Assembly: GCA_016788165.1 (NCBI GenBank)
Contig: JAEUTH010000017.1
Coordinates: 62,001-126,000, forward strand
Reading direction: 5' to 3'
From: Bacteroidia bacterium
Lineage (GTDB): Bacteria; Bacteroidota; Bacteroidia; AKYH767-A; OLB10
DNA: 64,000 nt
Shown: piece by piece, positions 8,510 to 62,093 of the stretch
How positions within the stretch are numbered: the stretch's first letter is position 1
Layout of the letters: every line of letters starts with the position of its first letter
Translations under genes and position numbers: made by a program
Notes under the pieces: generated by a model
The model's input: only the letters and a program-made list of their open reading frames with translations
Told to the model about the DNA's origin: nothing
The model's database searches: none

Positions 8510-10222
8510 TTATCTGTTAACCACAAGTTTCGTTTTATAGGATTGATTTCCTGATTGTGCATCAATAAAGTAAATGCCCGTAGATAAATCAGCCGTAGAG
8601 ATTTGATTTTCCAGCCCATTTTCAAATGGGATTGTTTTCAGTAACTGCATGGTGCTGTTGTAGATTTTCAAAATGGTTTGTGCATCGCTTGTTAATTTTA
8701 CAGTGATGAATTCGTTGGCGGGGTTGGGGAAAATGCTTAAATCAGCTGCGGTTATATGGACTTCGTTATCTGGCATTAATCTAAGGGGCAAGCAGGTATT
8801 CACCATATCGCTGATTCGGAGTAATACAGCGCTTCCTTCATTGGCAATAAATCCTGTTGTATTAAATACAGTTGGACTTAACACGATTTCATTCCCGGCC
8901 TCCAAGTGTGCAAAACCACTGTTGCTTATTTCAACCGGGCCGAGCGCGGAATTAATAGCAATTGAATTAATAGCAAGCACTTTCGCATAGCTAATTGGAA
9001 ACCCCGGACTTGGAAAGGTAATTGAATTGGGGAAAGACTCATCGAGGCAACTAATGGTATTGAGATGCGAATTAATTTCAGTTATTGAAGTTGCGGCCCA
9101 TCCTACTGAACCAGATTGGATATTAGGACACATAATACTTGATGGATTACAGGTAATATCGTGGCCAGCTCCAAAATTATGCCCTAACTCATGAGTTGAT
9201 AGATTGATGGTACTCATCGTAACGGGAGAGAAGTTAGTGACGGTACTGTAATACCAGTTGGCGTCACAAACAACGCCAATCCACGCAAATCCAACAGTTG
9301 TATTGCTTATTGAGCGGCCGGTAAACATGTGAGTAACATCCCTGTTAATTGATGTTCTATTTGCATTCCACCAATTTGTAAACTGTGGTAATATTCCTTG
9401 TAAGGTATCACCACTGTAAGGGTCCGCTGCTGTTGTCCATATTTGCTGATAACGCAACACGAATTTAACCTTAAATGTTCCTGTATAAAGGCCTTCTACC
9501 TGGTTCAAAATAGTTCTGATTCTATTTAGCGCAGTGTTTACATTGGAACTAAAATCCTGGTAATATTCAAAGTCAGCTTCGGTAGCAATTTCTAAAAATT
9601 TACACGGCCCTGTTGAGGACTCATTTTCAGGAGTTGGTTCATGTTCGAACAAATTATTTATTTCAGAATTTGCCTCGCTTACACCGCAGATGTGGTTGGG
9701 GTCAGATCTTACATCCACCGGTTCATAAACTACCACAAACTTCGAATTTGCACCGGGAATAAACCGATTCAGCAAATCGAAAAAAACACGTTTGCCATTC
9801 CTGCTGATGTATCCTTCAAACGTAGAATGGTCAATGGAAAGTCTTGTGACATTGGTTTCATCATTATCTACAAGGCCTTTATAAGTATTGGCTACGTGTT
9901 GTTGAATTTCAACCTCCCCATTTTCAGTCATCATTACAGCTTTAAAATCTTTGCCGCGTAAATCATTTAACTCCAGGGTGAGTGAATACTTATCCGCCCC
10001 CATTAATAGTTCAAAACTGATGTCGGAGGATTTCTGTGAGACAAAGTTTGCAATTTCTGAAGCAGGGATCTCATAGACTCTATATTTGTGAAAATAGTTG
10101 CTAAGCGCTGCATGAAATTGTCCAGTACGGGCCTCAACAAATTTGAATTCTTTTGCATGGCATACAGTAGCCAACAGAACCAAACAAGCTAAAAGCTTAT
10201 TTTTAATTTTAAAAGATTTCAT
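8510..10222 (-). CDS. Secreted M12 (reprolysin-like) zinc metalloprotease with cysteine switch, T9SS type A cargo
   Basis: A secreted metzincin protease. Parts in order: signal peptide (1-23), propeptide (about 24-205), catalytic domain (about 207-400), a short beta domain (NEIVLSPTVFNTTGF) and a T9SS type A sorting domain from LSIFPNPANEF. The zinc site is complete: HELGHNFGAGHD gives His344, Glu345, His348 and His354, with Met364 in SIMCPN as the Met-turn. The propeptide holds NHICGVSE with Cys179, which resembles the cysteine switch of ADAM/reprolysin zymogens. This suggests it is exported inactive across the outer membrane and then processed. The middle gene of the operon, it starts 30 bases after the tail-fibre-like gene ends. 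Its substrate is unknown. Confidence 0.92.
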   Translation of the reverse strand: MKSFKIKNKLLACLVLLATVCHAKEFKFVEARTGQFHAALSNYFHKYRVYEIPASEIANFVSQKSSDISFELLMGADKYSLTLELNDLRGKDFKAVMMTENGEVEIQQHVANTYKGLVDNDETNVTRLSIDHSTFEGYISRNGKRVFFDLLNRFIPGANSKFVVVYEPVDVRSDPNHICGVSEANSEINNLFEHEPTPENESSTGPCKFLEIATEADFEYYQDFSSNVNTALNRIRTILNQVEGLYTGTFKVKFVLRYQQIWTTAADPYSGDTLQGILPQFTNWWNANRTSINRDVTHMFTGRSISNTTVGFAWIGVVCDANWYYSTVTNFSPVTMSTINLSTHELGHNFGAGHDITCNPSSIMCPNIQSGSVGWAATSITEINSHLNTISCLDESFPNSITFPSPGFPISYAKVLAINSIAINSALGPVEISNSGFAHLEAGNEIVLSPTVFNTTGFIANEGSAVLLRISDMVNTCLPLRLMPDNEVHITAADLSIFPNPANEFITVKLTSDAQTILKIYNSTMQLLKTIPFENGLENQISTADLSTGIYFIDAQSGNQSYKTKLVVNR

Positions 10223-10252
10223 TTTTATGTTGGTTTTTGAGGTGGTAAAAAC

Positions 10253-11872
10253 TTACTTTTTGGTTTTCAATGCATCAACCTGCTTCTGTAAATCAATTAC
10301 GTATAAGGTCAATTCCTCAATTTTCTTAATCATCTGTGCAGATGTTTTGCCTACTTCCAAACCTTCACTTTCGATGATGGAACCTTTGGTTACATCAGGC
10401 AAATGCTTGTTTGTTTTAATAAACGCTTCTACTTCGCTAAGGGGTTTTAAGTTGTAATCGTCAGCAAATACATAATCGCACCAACCTGTTGCTACACGCA
10501 CTTCTTTAGCACGCATGGTTCCGCAAACGTCCAGCTTATACGCAGGTGTTGAAGTGCCGATTCCGACATTATTGGTTAAGTCAGCTATTATGACATTTGA
10601 AGTTGCTTTTCCTCCGCGTATATAGGTGTCCTCGTTAACTCCAAAAGCAAAATGCGAGAAAAAGTCAGTGCCTTCAAAACTTGCCACATCATCAGTGCCG
10701 CTTAATTTTGAAACGGTAAATGTGCTATTCACACCAGCCGAATTAATGCGAACTTTTCCATCAGCTTCAATGTCTAACCTGTCGGTTAATGTTAATGCAC
10801 CGTCATTAGCTCCAGCGCTTGCTCCGGTACGGAAATAAATCCTTCCTGATACGGGATCGGTTCCAATTAATGCACCATAGCCGGCTTTCATAGCTTTAAC
10901 GCCACCATTGTAATAAGAATTAAAATAAATTTCGGGCCAATCGGCAGCAATTGAAATACCTGCGCTTGATGCGCTCTTCTTAAACATGGCTACACTTTGA
11001 CCTACCGAACCTTGAACCATCAGCTTGGCCTTTGATGGGTCATTAGTACCAATCCCTACATTGCCGGCCTGAAATAAGCCTGAAGCAGTACTTAAAATCA
11101 GGTTACCGGGTGTACCACCATTAGGTGCATAAGGCAAAATGTTCAGATCGTTTCCATTCAATTTGATAATTGAAGAATTAACGGTCCCCATAGTTAAATA
11201 GCCGGAATTAATGGTTACAAAGTTGGAGTTACCGCCTATGGTAAGCGCATCACTATTTACAATTTCATTTTTGATTACAAAATCAGGTGTTCCGTTGCCA
11301 TTTACAGTAAGTCCTGTTTTCCATTGAGGTGTTCCGGTTTGTGTGTAGCGGGTTACTGCTTCATAGCCGTTGGCAGAGCGATCAAGTGTAAGTTGCGCAC
11401 CATTACCGGTTGATCTTACCAGCGCCTCGTTTAAACCGGAACGTTGCACGTGCAAAGAAGATGCAGGTGCATTGGTTCCTATACCGAAGTTGTTTGTTAG
11501 AGCATCAACAGCCATTGCCGGGCTACCCAAAGCAATATTTCTTATCACAAAATTATCCGTGCCCACTGTACCGGTTTGCCAAGTAGGTGTACCATTGGTG
11601 CGGTAGCTTACCGATGAAGTTGCCGTACTGTTTGCGCGGTCTAAAATTAAATTGGCCGTACCTGTAGTTGATTTAAAGTTCATACTGGCATTGCCTGCAC
11701 GTTGTACATCAATAACAAAAGCCGGATTGGCTGTGCCTATACCTACATTGTCGCCAATGTTTTGTAATATGGTTTTATTAGCACCACCGCTAATAAATTG
11801 CGCCAGACTACTAAAACAGTTGAACATTAAAAAAAAGCCAATGAGGCATCTTGAATTTTTAAAATTTTTCAT
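10253..11872 (-). CDS. Secreted tail-fibre-like repeat protein with C-terminal coiled coil
   Basis: A 539-residue exported protein (signal peptide to about residue 24). It carries at least four copies of the G-I-G-T phrase found in Bacteroidota fibre-like proteins (NVGIGTANPAFVIDV, NFGIGTNAPASSLHV, NVGIGTNDPSKAKLMV, NVGIGTSTPAYKLDV), spaced through beta-rich sequence. The C-terminal part (about 455-539) contains DYVFADDYNLKPLSEVEAF and NKHLPDV and ends in a coiled coil (KKIEELTLYVIDLQKQV). This end closely resembles that of the protein at 62383-63555. Such proteins are thought to form trimeric surface fibres, but that is inference. It has no FPNP sorting domain. First gene of the operon, behind the -7 box at 11913-11920 and the G11 run. 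Confidence 0.85.
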   Translation of the reverse strand: MKNFKNSRCLIGFFLMFNCFSSLAQFISGGANKTILQNIGDNVGIGTANPAFVIDVQRAGNASMNFKSTTGTANLILDRANSTATSSVSYRTNGTPTWQTGTVGTDNFVIRNIALGSPAMAVDALTNNFGIGTNAPASSLHVQRSGLNEALVRSTGNGAQLTLDRSANGYEAVTRYTQTGTPQWKTGLTVNGNGTPDFVIKNEIVNSDALTIGGNSNFVTINSGYLTMGTVNSSIIKLNGNDLNILPYAPNGGTPGNLILSTASGLFQAGNVGIGTNDPSKAKLMVQGSVGQSVAMFKKSASSAGISIAADWPEIYFNSYYNGGVKAMKAGYGALIGTDPVSGRIYFRTGASAGANDGALTLTDRLDIEADGKVRINSAGVNSTFTVSKLSGTDDVASFEGTDFFSHFAFGVNEDTYIRGGKATSNVIIADLTNNVGIGTSTPAYKLDVCGTMRAKEVRVATGWCDYVFADDYNLKPLSEVEAFIKTNKHLPDVTKGSIIESEGLEVGKTSAQMIKKIEELTLYVIDLQKQVDALKTKK

Positions 11873-54213: not shown

Positions 54214-55380
54214 TTAATAGCATACGGCTGCATAACTACGTATAGCGTTAAAGTTATTTGTAAACGAAATATTTGCTGGTGATGTTTTTTGGTTGTTAAT
54301 GCGCAAATCCATTGCTTTTTCAATACATCGCATTACGGCATTGTTTTCGGATGTGGTGCCAATACTTATACGGACGGTTTGGTTAAGTTTTACAAAGTTT
54401 GATGTGTCTAATACCTTAATGCCGGCATGGCTAAATGATTGAATCAACTTATTGTGATTTGATTTGATTTTGATGAGCAAGAAGTTTCCTTCTGATGGAT
54501 AAACATAAATTTGATTAGCACTAAAATTACTTGTTAAATATGTTTTCATACGATTACGTTCGCTAATTATGTTTTTAACGCATTGTTTTGAATCGTGCAT
54601 AAATTTTGCATCGAAAAGTATATAACGTGCAAACAATAATGTAAACGGATTGATGGCAAATTGAAGTAACAGCTTTTTTACATTAGCCGTAATAGTTGCC
54701 GATGCGCATAAATAACCTAACCGCAAGCCTGCAACCGGAAATGCTTTTGAAAACGAACGTAGCACCATTAAATTTTCATACTGATTAATCAAAGGCGTAA
54801 AATCTGTTTTACTAAATTCGCAATACACACCATCAAGCACTATCAAAGCAGTGGGGTTTTGTTTAAGTATGTTTTCCAATTGCTTCATCGAAATATTGGT
54901 ACCTGTTGGATTATTAGGTGCAGTAATAATTAGTACGGAGTTTGAATGTAGCGCAGGCAATGTTTTTAAATTAAAATTTAAATTGTCATCTAACATCCAG
55001 GGCGTATATTCAATATTGTATGATTTGCAGTGATAATCGAAAAGCGAATACGAAGGCTGCGTTATTACTATACTTTTTCGGTTTATCGCAAAATAGTTTA
55101 ACAAAGTTGTAATAAGCGTGGCCGAGCCTGAGCTTAGCGCAATATTTTGAGCAGTTAAGCCACAATAATTTGCAACATTTTGCTCTATATCACTTAAATC
55201 GTTTGAAGGATAGCGATTCCAATTTGTTTGAATTAAAAGCGCTGCGAGTTTTTCTTTATAATTCAATGCAACATCATCCGATTGTTCGTTTTTATCGAGA
55301 TATATTTTTGATTTCGACTTGGATACAACCAGGCGGCTATTCATGTTTTGAAGCTGTGTATTAAATAAGGACTGATTCAT
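54214..55380 (-). CDS. HisC-like PLP aminotransferase in a GRAS cassette
   Basis: A fold-type I, class I/II aminotransferase of 388 residues, closest in pattern to histidinol-phosphate aminotransferase. The Schiff-base lysine is Lys212 in SFSKAF. Other PLP contacts are SSGSATLI (83-90), APNNPTG (154-160), Asp183/Tyr186 in LDGVYCEF and the RLGY that follows. It has an extra C-terminal tail of about 25 residues (NQKTSPANISFTNNFNAI...). No other his gene is nearby, so it need not act in histidine synthesis. It lies 49 bases downstream of the GRAS-like methyltransferase gene in the same operon. Confidence 0.88.
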   Translation of the reverse strand: MNQSLFNTQLQNMNSRLVVSKSKSKIYLDKNEQSDDVALNYKEKLAALLIQTNWNRYPSNDLSDIEQNVANYCGLTAQNIALSSGSATLITTLLNYFAINRKSIVITQPSYSLFDYHCKSYNIEYTPWMLDDNLNFNLKTLPALHSNSVLIITAPNNPTGTNISMKQLENILKQNPTALIVLDGVYCEFSKTDFTPLINQYENLMVLRSFSKAFPVAGLRLGYLCASATITANVKKLLLQFAINPFTLLFARYILFDAKFMHDSKQCVKNIISERNRMKTYLTSNFSANQIYVYPSEGNFLLIKIKSNHNKLIQSFSHAGIKVLDTSNFVKLNQTVRISIGTTSENNAVMRCIEKAMDLRINNQKTSPANISFTNNFNAIRSYAAVCY

Positions 55381-55429
55381 CAGATTGTATATTAAGTAGT
55401 GTGGTTATTATTTAAAAGTTAGTTTAAAA

Positions 55430-56497
55430 CTATATGGCTTTAATTATAGCGAGTATGTTTTCGGTATCATATTTAAATCCAATAAATCCATCCGGTTGCA
55501 TAACTATGTTTAATCCGGTTTCATTCAACGATACGTGCTTAAATTGCATTTCATCAATTTCAAAGCAGCTTTGAGTAAGCATTTTTATCCATTCTATTGC
55601 CGGTTCATGTTTTTCGAATCTATCGGTTTCGGCTTTGCCTAAAATATCTTCAATCTCACGGCCAAAAAATAACTTCAATCCGTTTTTATACTTACGTTCA
55701 ATGTCCAGGTTATCAATAACTTTAAACAAGGCAATAAAGTGGTGGTAACAGTTGTTTATGCGTTGTTTATAGTCGGGTTCAAAATGATCTACATTAGGTT
55801 CTGTAATAAAAAATGCAACCGGGTTAATGGCCTTAATGCGTTGTAAGGTAACCAGCCGTTGCGCTTTTTGCTGAATATGATGCAAAGCCAATGATGCATT
55901 TACAATTACAGCGCCTTGCAGTTTGGGTATGGAATTAAAATTTACATTTTCGGCATAGTCAGCTATTTTTACAATTTCAATTTCAAAGTGAGCGGTGTTT
56001 TTTATTGCCTTAATATTGGCTTCGGCAATATTTAAGGCATCTTCAAAAGGCTCAATGCCAACAATGGTTACTTTTTTAAGGTTGGATAAACCTGAGGCCA
56101 TACTGATAATGTTAACCATTTGGGTACCCAAGCCAATGCCAATATCAACCAGTGTTACTTCATCATAATGGCTCATGGTTTCGATAATTGAATTGTTTAC
56201 CATTTGTTGGCCGTATTTTACAAATGGAAATTTATCAATTAGTATATCAAACAATTCTATTTGCGAAACTTCATATTGTTTATCATAGATGTTATTATTT
56301 AGTAATTCAGGATTAAATTTCCGATTGATTGCATGGATTAAAATGGCAGCTAAAAATTTTTCAGAATCATGCTCCATACCATCACTACAGTATGCTGCTA
56401 ATGAATTAAGCTCCAATTGCATCAAGGTTTCATTTGTATTATTGTTTAATATTTCAACAATGGTTTGTAGTAAGGTAGCTGTGCCGGTGTTGTTCAT
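55430..56497 (-). CDS. Bacterial GRAS-family protein, Rossmann methyltransferase-like
   Basis: A 355-residue protein that matches the GRAS family of plant gibberellin-signalling proteins, which also occurs in a few bacteria. A helical part (1-110) precedes the SAM-like site DIGIGLGTQ (118-126) within VTLVDIGIGLGTQMVNIISM, corresponding to the VHIID motif. Then come IEPFEDALNIAEANI, LALHHIQ (203-209), EPNVDHFEPDYKQRINNCYH (233-252), REIEDILGKAETDRFEKHEP and EWIKMLTQSCF, matching the PFYRE and SAW-like end. Bacterial GRAS proteins are predicted small-molecule methylases or binding proteins. It is first in a two-gene operon with the aminotransferase. This family call is from pattern recognition only. 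Confidence 0.75.
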   Translation of the reverse strand: MNNTGTATLLQTIVEILNNNTNETLMQLELNSLAAYCSDGMEHDSEKFLAAILIHAINRKFNPELLNNNIYDKQYEVSQIELFDILIDKFPFVKYGQQMVNNSIIETMSHYDEVTLVDIGIGLGTQMVNIISMASGLSNLKKVTIVGIEPFEDALNIAEANIKAIKNTAHFEIEIVKIADYAENVNFNSIPKLQGAVIVNASLALHHIQQKAQRLVTLQRIKAINPVAFFITEPNVDHFEPDYKQRINNCYHHFIALFKVIDNLDIERKYKNGLKLFFGREIEDILGKAETDRFEKHEPAIEWIKMLTQSCFEIDEMQFKHVSLNETGLNIVMQPDGFIGFKYDTENILAIIKAI

Positions 56498-56870: not shown

Positions 56871-59252
56871 ATGTGGAATTACTTTGCCAATAAATTATTA
56901 CGTAACCGGTTAGCTTTTATTCTGGTGCTGGGTGCTTTAACCGCTTTTATGGCCTACCGCGCCACCCAAATAGAACTTTCTTATGAATTTGCTAAGGTTT
57001 TGCCGGCCACCGATCCGGCTTATGCTGATTACGAGAACTTTAAAAAAATGTTTGGCGAAGATGGCAGCGTTATGGTTATTGGCCTTCAAGACACAAACTT
57101 GTTTAATTTAAATGTGCTTAATGATTGGTATGCCCTTAGCAATGACATAAAAAGTATTGATGGCGTGCAAGACGTGTTATCACTAACCACGCTTTACAAT
57201 GTAATTCGTAACGATAGTTTACAGCGCTTCGATTTTAAACCTGTTATGACTAAGCCGCTGCAAACACAAGCAGAAGCCGATAGTTTACGTAACTTAATTT
57301 ACAATTTACCTTTTTACAACGATTTGGTGATTAACCAAAAAACCAATGCCACACTTATTGCTATTACTTTTAAAAAGGTTGATTTAAATTCGAAGCACCG
57401 CATACAAATGGTGGAGCAGATTAAAGCGGTTTCACAAAAGTTTGAAGCCGGGCATCAATTAAAGCTGCATTACTCCGGTATGCCTTACATCCGTACGGCT
57501 ATTATGAACAAGGTTTCGGGCGAGATGAAATTATTTTTAATACTTGGAATAATTATCACAACCATTATTCTAGGGCTGTTTTTTAAAAGTTTTACTTCAG
57601 TTGTTTTTTCAGTGGTGGTGGTTATTGCCGGAGTAATCTGGTCAATGGGCACTATCGAACTGCTTAATTATAAAATTACCATACTAACCGGTTTAATTCC
57701 GCCACTGATTATGGTAATTGGCGTTCCTAATTGTATTTTTCTTATCAATAAATATCATAGCGAATTTGCCTTGCACGGCAACAAAGTAAAAGCCTTAACA
57801 CGCATGATTACTACCATAGGTGTATCATTGTTTTTGGCAAACATTACCACTTCAATTGGTTTTGGTGTATTGTACTTTACCAATAGCTCCTTTCTTACCG
57901 AGTTTGGTGTTATTGCTGCTGTTAATGTAATGCTTACCTACATTATTACGCTTATTTTTATTCCGATTATATTAAGCTATTTGCCGGTGCCAAATGCTAA
58001 AGATTTGATCCATTTAGAGGCTAAACGCATAAACTTTGTGCTTGATATTATTGATACGCTCGTACACCGGTATCGTAACTGGATTTATGGAGTAACCGCT
58101 GTTGTTACCGCAGTTTTTATTTATGGCATGATGCAAATAAACATGAATGGTTTTGTGGTTGACGACTTGCCTGCTGATGACCCGGTTTATGCCGACCTTC
58201 GTTTTTTTGAGTCGAATTTTAAAGGCATACTGCCATTCGAAATTTATATTGATACCAAAAAGCCCAACGGTGTTTTCGAAAATAATGCACGTGTACTTTA
58301 CAAAATAAAAACTCTTCAAAAAACATTAGAACAATATCCCGAACTATCCAGAGCTTTGTCAGTTACCGAAGCTATAAAATTCTCATACCAAGCATACAGG
58401 GGCGGAGATAAAAAGTTTTATGTACTACCAGGCATTAGCGAATTAAAAAACCTTAATGATTATGTAGCCACCGTAAAAGGTGGCGATAACAGATTGAAAT
58501 CGTTTATTGACTCGACCAAACAATACACACGTGTAAGTATTCAAATGGCTGATGTGGGTTCGGTAAGAATTAAAGAACTGCTTACCGAAATTAAGCCGCG
58601 CATTGATTCGATTTTTGACAACAACAATTACCATGTAAAATTAACCGGCCACAGTTTGGTGTTTTTAAAAGGTAACGATTATTTGTTGCACAACTTGCTC
58701 GAAAGTCTTTTAATTGAAATTGTGCTCATTGCACTTGTTGGTCTTGCATTGTTTCGTTCGACCCGGATTATATTATTGTCAAAACTACCTTGCCTTATAC
58801 CGCTTTTAATTACGGCCGGCATAATGGGTTTTATGGGCATACGGTTTAAACCATCCACAATATTAATTTTCAGTATTGCTTTTGGCATTGCATCAGATGG
58901 TACTATTTATTTTCTGGCTAAGTATCGCCTTGAGTTAAAACAACATCGTAAGAGTATTGCCGATGCAGTTTCCGCTGCAATAAAAGATACCGGTTTAAGT
59001 ATGATTTATACAGCGGTAATTTTATTTTTTGGTTTCGGCATTTTTGCTGCATCAGGCTTTGGTGGCATAAAAGCTTTAGGTATTTTAATCTCCATTACCT
59101 TACTGGTTTCTATGATTACCAATTTATTATTGTTGCCAAGCATTTTGCTTTCTATTGATAAATGGGTAAGCCGAAAGGAAATTATCTCAACACCATTAAT
59201 TGAAATTGAAGCTCCTGAAGATGGCGAACCTACCGGTGATGAAAAACTTTAA
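56871..59252 (+). CDS. RND superfamily (MMPL) transporter
   Basis: A 793-residue RND permease of the MMPL/SSD type with two halves, each one helix, a large periplasmic domain and five helices. Helices are visible at about 13-31, 215-380 (GIIITTIILGLFF, GVIWSMGTIELL, IPPLIMVIGVPNCIFLINKY) and 605-770 (SIAFGIASDGTIYFLAKYRL). The internal duplication is clear: IMVIGVPNCIFLINKYHSE in half one and SIAFGIASDGTIYFL in half two. Such proteins export lipids, hopanoids or other hydrophobic compounds using proton motive force. It is a single gene, transcribed divergently from the GRAS operon. Substrate unknown. Confidence 0.9.
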   Translation: MWNYFANKLLRNRLAFILVLGALTAFMAYRATQIELSYEFAKVLPATDPAYADYENFKKMFGEDGSVMVIGLQDTNLFNLNVLNDWYALSNDIKSIDGVQDVLSLTTLYNVIRNDSLQRFDFKPVMTKPLQTQAEADSLRNLIYNLPFYNDLVINQKTNATLIAITFKKVDLNSKHRIQMVEQIKAVSQKFEAGHQLKLHYSGMPYIRTAIMNKVSGEMKLFLILGIIITTIILGLFFKSFTSVVFSVVVVIAGVIWSMGTIELLNYKITILTGLIPPLIMVIGVPNCIFLINKYHSEFALHGNKVKALTRMITTIGVSLFLANITTSIGFGVLYFTNSSFLTEFGVIAAVNVMLTYIITLIFIPIILSYLPVPNAKDLIHLEAKRINFVLDIIDTLVHRYRNWIYGVTAVVTAVFIYGMMQINMNGFVVDDLPADDPVYADLRFFESNFKGILPFEIYIDTKKPNGVFENNARVLYKIKTLQKTLEQYPELSRALSVTEAIKFSYQAYRGGDKKFYVLPGISELKNLNDYVATVKGGDNRLKSFIDSTKQYTRVSIQMADVGSVRIKELLTEIKPRIDSIFDNNNYHVKLTGHSLVFLKGNDYLLHNLLESLLIEIVLIALVGLALFRSTRIILLSKLPCLIPLLITAGIMGFMGIRFKPSTILIFSIAFGIASDGTIYFLAKYRLELKQHRKSIADAVSAAIKDTGLSMIYTAVILFFGFGIFAASGFGGIKALGILISITLLVSMITNLLLLPSILLSIDKWVSRKEIISTPLIEIEAPEDGEPTGDEKL

Positions 59253-61367: not shown

Positions 61368-62093
61368 ATGATTTTAAAAGCATTGATTATTGACGACCAA
61401 CAGCATTTTATTGATATGCTTATTGATACCTGCAAGGTTGCCAAATTACCTGTAACAGTTGTTGCTACTGCACTTAATGCACATGATGGTTTTATTGCCA
61501 TACGAAATCAGAAACCTGATCTGGTTTTTTTAGATGTAGAGATGCCCGGCAAGACTGGGCTTGAAATGATAAATGAAATAAAGGAAAAGGATTTTGAAAT
61601 TATAGTTACCACCTCGCATGATAAGTATGCATTACAAGCTATTAAAACCCAAGCTATTGATTACCTCTTAAAACCTGTTGACCTAATCGAACTATCAAAA
61701 GCGGTTGACAGTGTTTTAAGTCGTAAGAGAGAAAAACTCATGCACACAACCGTGCAGCATACTGATTATAAAAAATTGACGGTAAGCACCAGCGATGGCA
61801 TGCTGTTTATCGAAATTGGCAAATTGGTTAGACTCGAAGCCGACAATGTTTATACTACTATTTATTGTATTGACGGATCAAAAGTAATAGCCTCAAAGCC
61901 TTTAAAAGATTTTGATGAACGACTGCAAAGCTATGGCTTTGTAAGAGTACATAAATCACACCTGATTAATATGAACTGCATCAAGAAATTTTACCGTGGC
62001 GAAAACGCTTACCTGGTTATGAGTGATGAGGGTATAGTTCCCGTATCGAAAACCGGCCGCGATACCTTGCAACAATTTACAGGTATTGTTTAG
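61368..62093 (+). CDS. LytTR-family response regulator
   Basis: A complete AgrA/LytR-type regulator of 241 residues. The receiver (1-120) has Asp9/Asp10 in LIIDDQ, phospho-acceptor Asp56 in LVFLDVEMPG, and Lys102 in YLLKPVD. The LytTR DNA-binding domain (about 142-238) shows IEIGKLVRLEADNVYTTIY, PLKDFDERLQSYGFVRVHKS and LINMNCIKKF. No LytS/histidine kinase gene is adjacent, so it is an orphan here. The -7 box at 61332 drives it. Targets may include the secreted proteins that follow. Confidence 0.95.
   Translation: MILKALIIDDQQHFIDMLIDTCKVAKLPVTVVATALNAHDGFIAIRNQKPDLVFLDVEMPGKTGLEMINEIKEKDFEIIVTTSHDKYALQAIKTQAIDYLLKPVDLIELSKAVDSVLSRKREKLMHTTVQHTDYKKLTVSTSDGMLFIEIGKLVRLEADNVYTTIYCIDGSKVIASKPLKDFDERLQSYGFVRVHKSHLINMNCIKKFYRGENAYLVMSDEGIVPVSKTGRDTLQQFTGIV

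Follow-up and report, generated by a model that had tools for sequence, protein, structure and literature searches.

The window, by which we mean the whole 64,000-nucleotide stretch of DNA from a Bacteroidia bacterium that was analysed, carries a GRAS-domain gene followed by a gene for a PLP-dependent aminotransferase (Table 1), and both open reading frames lie where an earlier note, made from the sequence alone, had placed them. The genome is 3.34 Mb in size, 99.8% complete and contains this single GRAS gene. The divergent neighbour (56871-59252) is, as also noted earlier, an RND protein of the MMPL/RND, HAE3-like type, which had been taken to favour a metabolite made or modified by the pair. 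Because the exporter is not conserved beside the pair in relatives, it provides no evidence for export and was rejected as a component of the system.

Table 1. Features of the GRAS-aminotransferase gene pair (positions in the window; strand given as + or -)
Feature	Position	Strand	Basis
GRAS-domain SAM-dependent methyltransferase gene (predicted activity), 355 aa, first of pair	55430..56497	-	PF03514; AlphaFold2 model compared with plant GRAS structures
HisC-derived PLP aminotransferase gene, 388 aa, second of pair, not a histidine enzyme	54214..55380	-	PF00155; TIGR01141 below cut-off; GRAS-linked clade; genome without hisD
49-bp spacer between GRAS and aminotransferase genes, same strand, operon-like	55381..55429	-	Sequence
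SAM-binding glycine loop DIGIGLGTQ, GRAS residues 118-126	56120..56146	-	G120 and G122 in all 64 prokaryotic GRAS proteins
His206-His207 after strand beta-4, candidate catalytic or metal-binding pair	55877..55882	-	H206 in 63/64, H207 in 64/64 prokaryotic GRAS proteins
PFYRE-like segment KLFFGREIED, GRAS residues 275-284	55646..55675	-	Alignment
PLP lysine K212 of the aminotransferase	54745..54747	-	35/35; aligns with E. coli HisC K214
Leu324 of the aminotransferase, at the position of HisC phosphate-binding Arg322	54409..54411	-	Arg in 25/26 HisC controls, 0/35 GRAS-linked enzymes
Cys118, hallmark of GRAS-linked aminotransferases	55027..55029	-	35/35 versus 0/26 HisC controls
Trp128, hallmark of GRAS-linked aminotransferases	54997..54999	-	35/35 versus 0/26 HisC controls

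The first protein belongs to the GRAS family, as the earlier note had recognised: PF03514 matches with 101.2 bits (E 7.8e-29) against a curated cut-off of 27, whereas profiles of ordinary methyltransferase families score under their own cut-offs on 55430-56497. Plant GRAS proteins rank first in the profile search of solved structures, and they are the sole full-length structural matches of the AlphaFold2 model (pLDDT 92.9, pTM 0.91), with Z-scores of 33-37 over 332-351 residues; a wide gap separates them from methyltransferases, which reach about 18 or lower. The PFYRE/SAW-like end described earlier was found in the form of the PFYRE-like segment and W303. The window protein shares the profile match, the full-length fold, the PFYRE-like segment and a conserved tryptophan with plant DELLA, SCL, SCR and SHR proteins (PF03514), but differs from them in retaining the glycine SAM loop and in lacking an N-terminal regulatory extension such as the DELLA region. 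It also stands apart from the GRAS family at large, that is the plant proteins and the bacterial proteins of Zhang, Iyer and Aravind (2012), in being paired with an aminotransferase. The SAM-type motif reported earlier could be located precisely, and E149 is retained alongside it; the intact loop indicates a potential for SAM binding only. In addition to the near-invariant histidine pair, H238, H253, D262 and the R280-E281 segment are highly conserved in the prokaryotic GRAS alignment.

GRAS genes are rare. The window's own genome was alone positive among 61 searched as close relatives, and among 395 genomes of the class seven gave GRAS matches, six of them above the cut-off and one below. A profile scan of genome contigs yielded 70 GRAS loci, 54 from Bacteroidota and 16 from other phyla, and the aminotransferase is encoded downstream on the same strand in 35 of the former and none of the latter. 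This is far beyond chance, and the two genes form a real, conserved unit. Culturable relatives with the pair include Emticicia, Runella limosa and R. defluvii. The aminotransferase is mostly the next gene after GRAS, with one or two small open reading frames in between in L032 and L034. In a tree that also includes 26 HisC controls and three paralogues from the window genome, all 35 GRAS-linked aminotransferases fall into a separate clade (support 100/97), which divides into a main group and a deep group of Cytophagales type. Within the 395 class genomes, three give scores of 526-574 bits for this clade; in a fourth, the gene is divided between two contigs and the score is 240 bits over 218 positions. 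All four genomes bear GRAS, and everything else scores at most 229 bits. The probability of four out of four, given the six above-cut-off GRAS genomes among 395, is ~1.5e-8 if the relatedness of the genomes is ignored, and because the cut for clade membership was set from GRAS-linked sequences, very divergent members without GRAS might escape it. Aminotransferase presence requires few changes on the GRAS tree, and nested absences, as in Marinilabiliaceae, point to losses of the gene. Apart from Breznakibacter, whose gene is split, genomes with a GRAS locus lacking the aminotransferase contain only ordinary HisC-like matches in other places, none above 213 bits. Carriage by phages or plasmids was rejected: phage records and viral contigs gave no GRAS match, and plasmids only two distant GRAS proteins from Skermanella (25% identity). 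A defence system was rejected as well, PADLOC giving only a marginal match to a generic methyltransferase.

The second protein is a fold-type I aminotransferase (PF00155, 4.3e-40, 138 bits), and its PLP lysine is intact, as had been claimed. It shares with HisC the fold (TM 0.73-0.81 by query length) and the PLP residues N157, D183, Y186, K212 and R220, all present in 35/35 GRAS-linked enzymes, as well as R337. It differs from HisC in scoring 229.7 bits with the TIGR01141 hisC model, below the curated cut-off of 276.55, in forming a separate clade, and in single residues: Arg322 (E. coli HisC numbering) is lost, Asp85 is replaced by Ala, Ser or Gly, and Cys118 and Trp128 are gained. HspAT of M. 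tuberculosis binds the phosphate group of histidinol phosphate through Arg337, Arg346 and Asn176 (PMC4703992), which we take as equivalent to Arg322, Arg335 and Asn157 of the E. coli enzyme. Given the loss of Arg322, a ligand of this phosphate in HisC, the substrate of the GRAS-linked aminotransferases is likely to be non-phosphorylated. Similarly, the earlier proposal of an imidazole-type product lost its support, since the likeness to HisC reflects descent only and both the phosphate-binding arginine and the pocket aspartate are gone. The distribution of histidine genes points the same way: no other his gene lies near the pair, in agreement with the earlier note, and neither a hisD match nor a hisC above cut-off was found in the whole window genome. 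Among 29 pair-bearing genomes, 16 contain hisD and exactly the same 16 contain a canonical hisC above the cut-off, while all remaining HisC-like matches fall below it.

Building on the identities of the two proteins, their conserved pairing, their intact cofactor motifs, the exclusion of a histidine role and the loss of the HisC phosphate ligand, we propose, with a probability of about 0.6, that the pair is a two-enzyme cassette in which a working PLP aminotransferase and a working GRAS methylase would act on a common amino acid or 2-oxo acid. The aminotransferase would descend from a HisC-type ancestor and would have shifted its specificity to an amino acid or 2-oxo acid without a phosphate group. 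In the best-fitting order, it would make the 2-oxo acid in the first step, the SAM-dependent GRAS enzyme would then methylate the same molecule, and the aminotransferase may return the amino group after methylation. A point against the proposal is that some Bacteroidota GRAS genes lack the aminotransferase, so that GRAS can also act without it. MppJ, SgvM and MrsA are methyltransferases that work with aminotransferases to produce beta-methyl amino acids, and methylation at C-beta as in these enzymes is our leading specific guess, although we hold it only tentatively. Like the GRAS protein, they possess a methyltransferase core with histidines after strand beta-4, and the two alpha-keto-acid C-methyltransferases MppJ and SgvM are the first non-GRAS matches of the GRAS model in Foldseek, MrsA ranking lower. 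The E-values are about 5e-8, but TM-scores are low (0.37-0.45), sequence identity is 10-15%, and the conserved histidines of the GRAS protein are candidates for a metal site only. MppJ and SgvM act on keto acids, and in SgvM the keto acid is bound at a metal ligated by two histidines (PMC10502145). These comparisons would fit a methylation, assisted by a metal, of a keto acid or carboxylate that the aminotransferase supplies, although the scores of the candidate folds are tied.

Because of these ties, we do not commit to the methylated atom. A variant of the same proposal, in which an amino acid or keto acid is modified by N- or O-methylation, is quite conceivable, though we would not bet on it; examples would be metal-assisted O-methylation of a carboxyl group as by CysG and BelI, the O-methyltransferases of cystargolide and belactosin synthesis, or alpha-N-methylation as by EgtD. 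We know of no aminotransferase partner of CysG or BelI, and both lack an N-terminal helical part like that of GRAS. When matches to the GRAS model are ordered by Z-score, CysG and BelI are the best outside the GRAS family (18.4, ~206 residues), SgvM and EgtD are tied, and keto-acid C-methyltransferases tie with O- and N-methyltransferases, whereas Foldseek places the keto-acid C-methyltransferases first. CysG and BelI bind metal through a His-His-Asp motif (PMC11408123), and the near-invariant His-His pair of the GRAS proteins occupies a similar place by sequence order; however, no counterpart of the aspartate, which would be the third metal ligand, was identified in the GRAS protein.

The genes surrounding the pair raise the question of a role in signalling. 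At 17 of 25 pair loci, LytTR response regulators are encoded no further than about 10 kb away, compared to 2.2 expected; as the loci are related to each other and hence not independent, the probability attached to this enrichment is overstated. At four loci (L020, L028, L044 and L087), one same-strand run comprises a histidine kinase of the Reg_prop/Y_Y_Y type, a LytTR regulator, GRAS and the aminotransferase, the regulators sharing 64-71% mutual identity. This neighbourhood enrichment makes a signalling metabolite from the pair possible. A more specific reading would make the pair an as yet undescribed synthase of two enzymes in Bacteroidota, producing a diffusible or intracellular methylated signal derived from an amino acid; nearby LytTR two-component systems would read this signal out, accompanied by globins and SpoIIAA-like proteins in some lineages. 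To us this appears unlikely. Closeness may mean that the pair is just a regulated target, and the same LytTR type (67-68% identical) is also present in two genomes of the class that lack a GRAS match, for which reason a single obligatory two-component partner was rejected. Moreover, the window has a lone LytTR regulator gene (61368-62093), 4.9 kb from GRAS, with no globin, SpoIIAA-like protein or kinase-LytTR run near the pair. Of the metabolic or signalling system suggested in the earlier note, the GRAS protein with its SAM motif, the active-looking PLP enzyme, its place outside histidine synthesis and the conserved unit have held up, and the metabolic or signalling role is what we infer from them. 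Both outcomes that the note had named as refuting, a profile match to an ordinary methyltransferase family and a pair not conserved together, failed to occur. A soil-bacterial origin by horizontal transfer is assumed for the GRAS proteins of plants, among them the DELLA repressors of gibberellin signalling (PMC9942845). If the pair were indeed a signal synthase, GRAS would first have served bacteria as a signal-making enzyme, and its plant descendants would have turned into signal-responding regulators later.

Similar to its plant relatives, the bacterial GRAS protein could itself be a non-enzymatic binder or regulator, with the aminotransferase supplying or removing its ligand. The whole-length fold near plant GRAS regulators and the signalling proteins that adjoin GRAS in several lineages agree with this scenario, but the glycine SAM loop is whole in 64/64 prokaryotic proteins and no domain has been added, and we regard it as quite improbable. 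That the aminotransferase is simply the genome's histidinol-phosphate aminotransferase, placed beside GRAS incidentally, has next to no probability: HisC is the curated model that fits it best and also its nearest fold, but its score below the hisC cut-off, the missing hisD, the separate canonical hisC wherever hisD exists, the lost Arg322 and the conserved pairing all contradict a role in histidine biosynthesis.

The notion of bacterial GRAS methylases is not in itself new, given that Zhang, Iyer and Aravind reportedly predicted bacterial GRAS proteins to be small-molecule methylases in 2012. Their work on bacterial GRAS proteins is cited in later publications (PMC4279901; PMC9942845). Leaving that study aside, the literature searched contained no report that we could find of the pairing of GRAS with an aminotransferase, and the same search returned no experimental function for any bacterial GRAS protein. 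The pair as a specialised and conserved enzymatic unit with a bacterial GRAS protein is a real finding. Where the substrate of GRAS could have been any small molecule, a conserved enzymatic partner of known chemistry narrows the search to amino acids and keto acids, and the pair makes the chemistry of ancestral GRAS proteins testable, as its two genes are open to expression, deletion and assay in common laboratory strains.

Several further observations concern the individual genomes and loci. Since the window genome is 99.8% complete and yielded no hisD, the organism probably cannot make its own histidine; 13 of the 29 pair-bearing genomes likewise show no hisD. The LytTR regulator gene of the window has no histidine kinase gene immediately beside it, and its product shares 34-35% identity with those regulators that immediately precede GRAS in relatives and 40% with one in L043. 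At six pair loci, genes for single-domain globins (PF00042) lie no more than about 10 kb away; they occur near the pair or beside associated LytTR regulators in L025, L032, L034, L036, L062 and L063, and in L036 the globin gene is directly next to the aminotransferase, starting 17 bp behind it. By eye, a globin-like open reading frame was also seen beside the same regulator type in L126, from a genome without a GRAS match. In Bacteroidales, SpoIIAA-like proteins are neighbours of GRAS whether or not the aminotransferase is there. In Marinilabiliaceae (L041, L042, L048, L049 and L050, at about 9300-11500), which have no aminotransferase, small proteins of ~130-150 aa with a weak SpoIIAA likeness (PF11964, 21.9 bits, below cut-off) stand on either side of GRAS, and a CRP-type regulator and two-component proteins are encoded further out. 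GRAS genes without the aminotransferase in two other lineages each have a fixed neighbour, which is a phosphotriesterase-like protein (PF02126) in Runella (L066-L069 and L084) and a seven-bladed lactonase (PF10282) in Larkinella (L053-L055 and L057). Finally, the aminotransferase gene is split in L045/L018 (Breznakibacter) and L093/L121, where a part of 165 aa adjoins GRAS and the rest lies elsewhere, and an IS66-like transposase fragment, recognised by eye, is located at the break.
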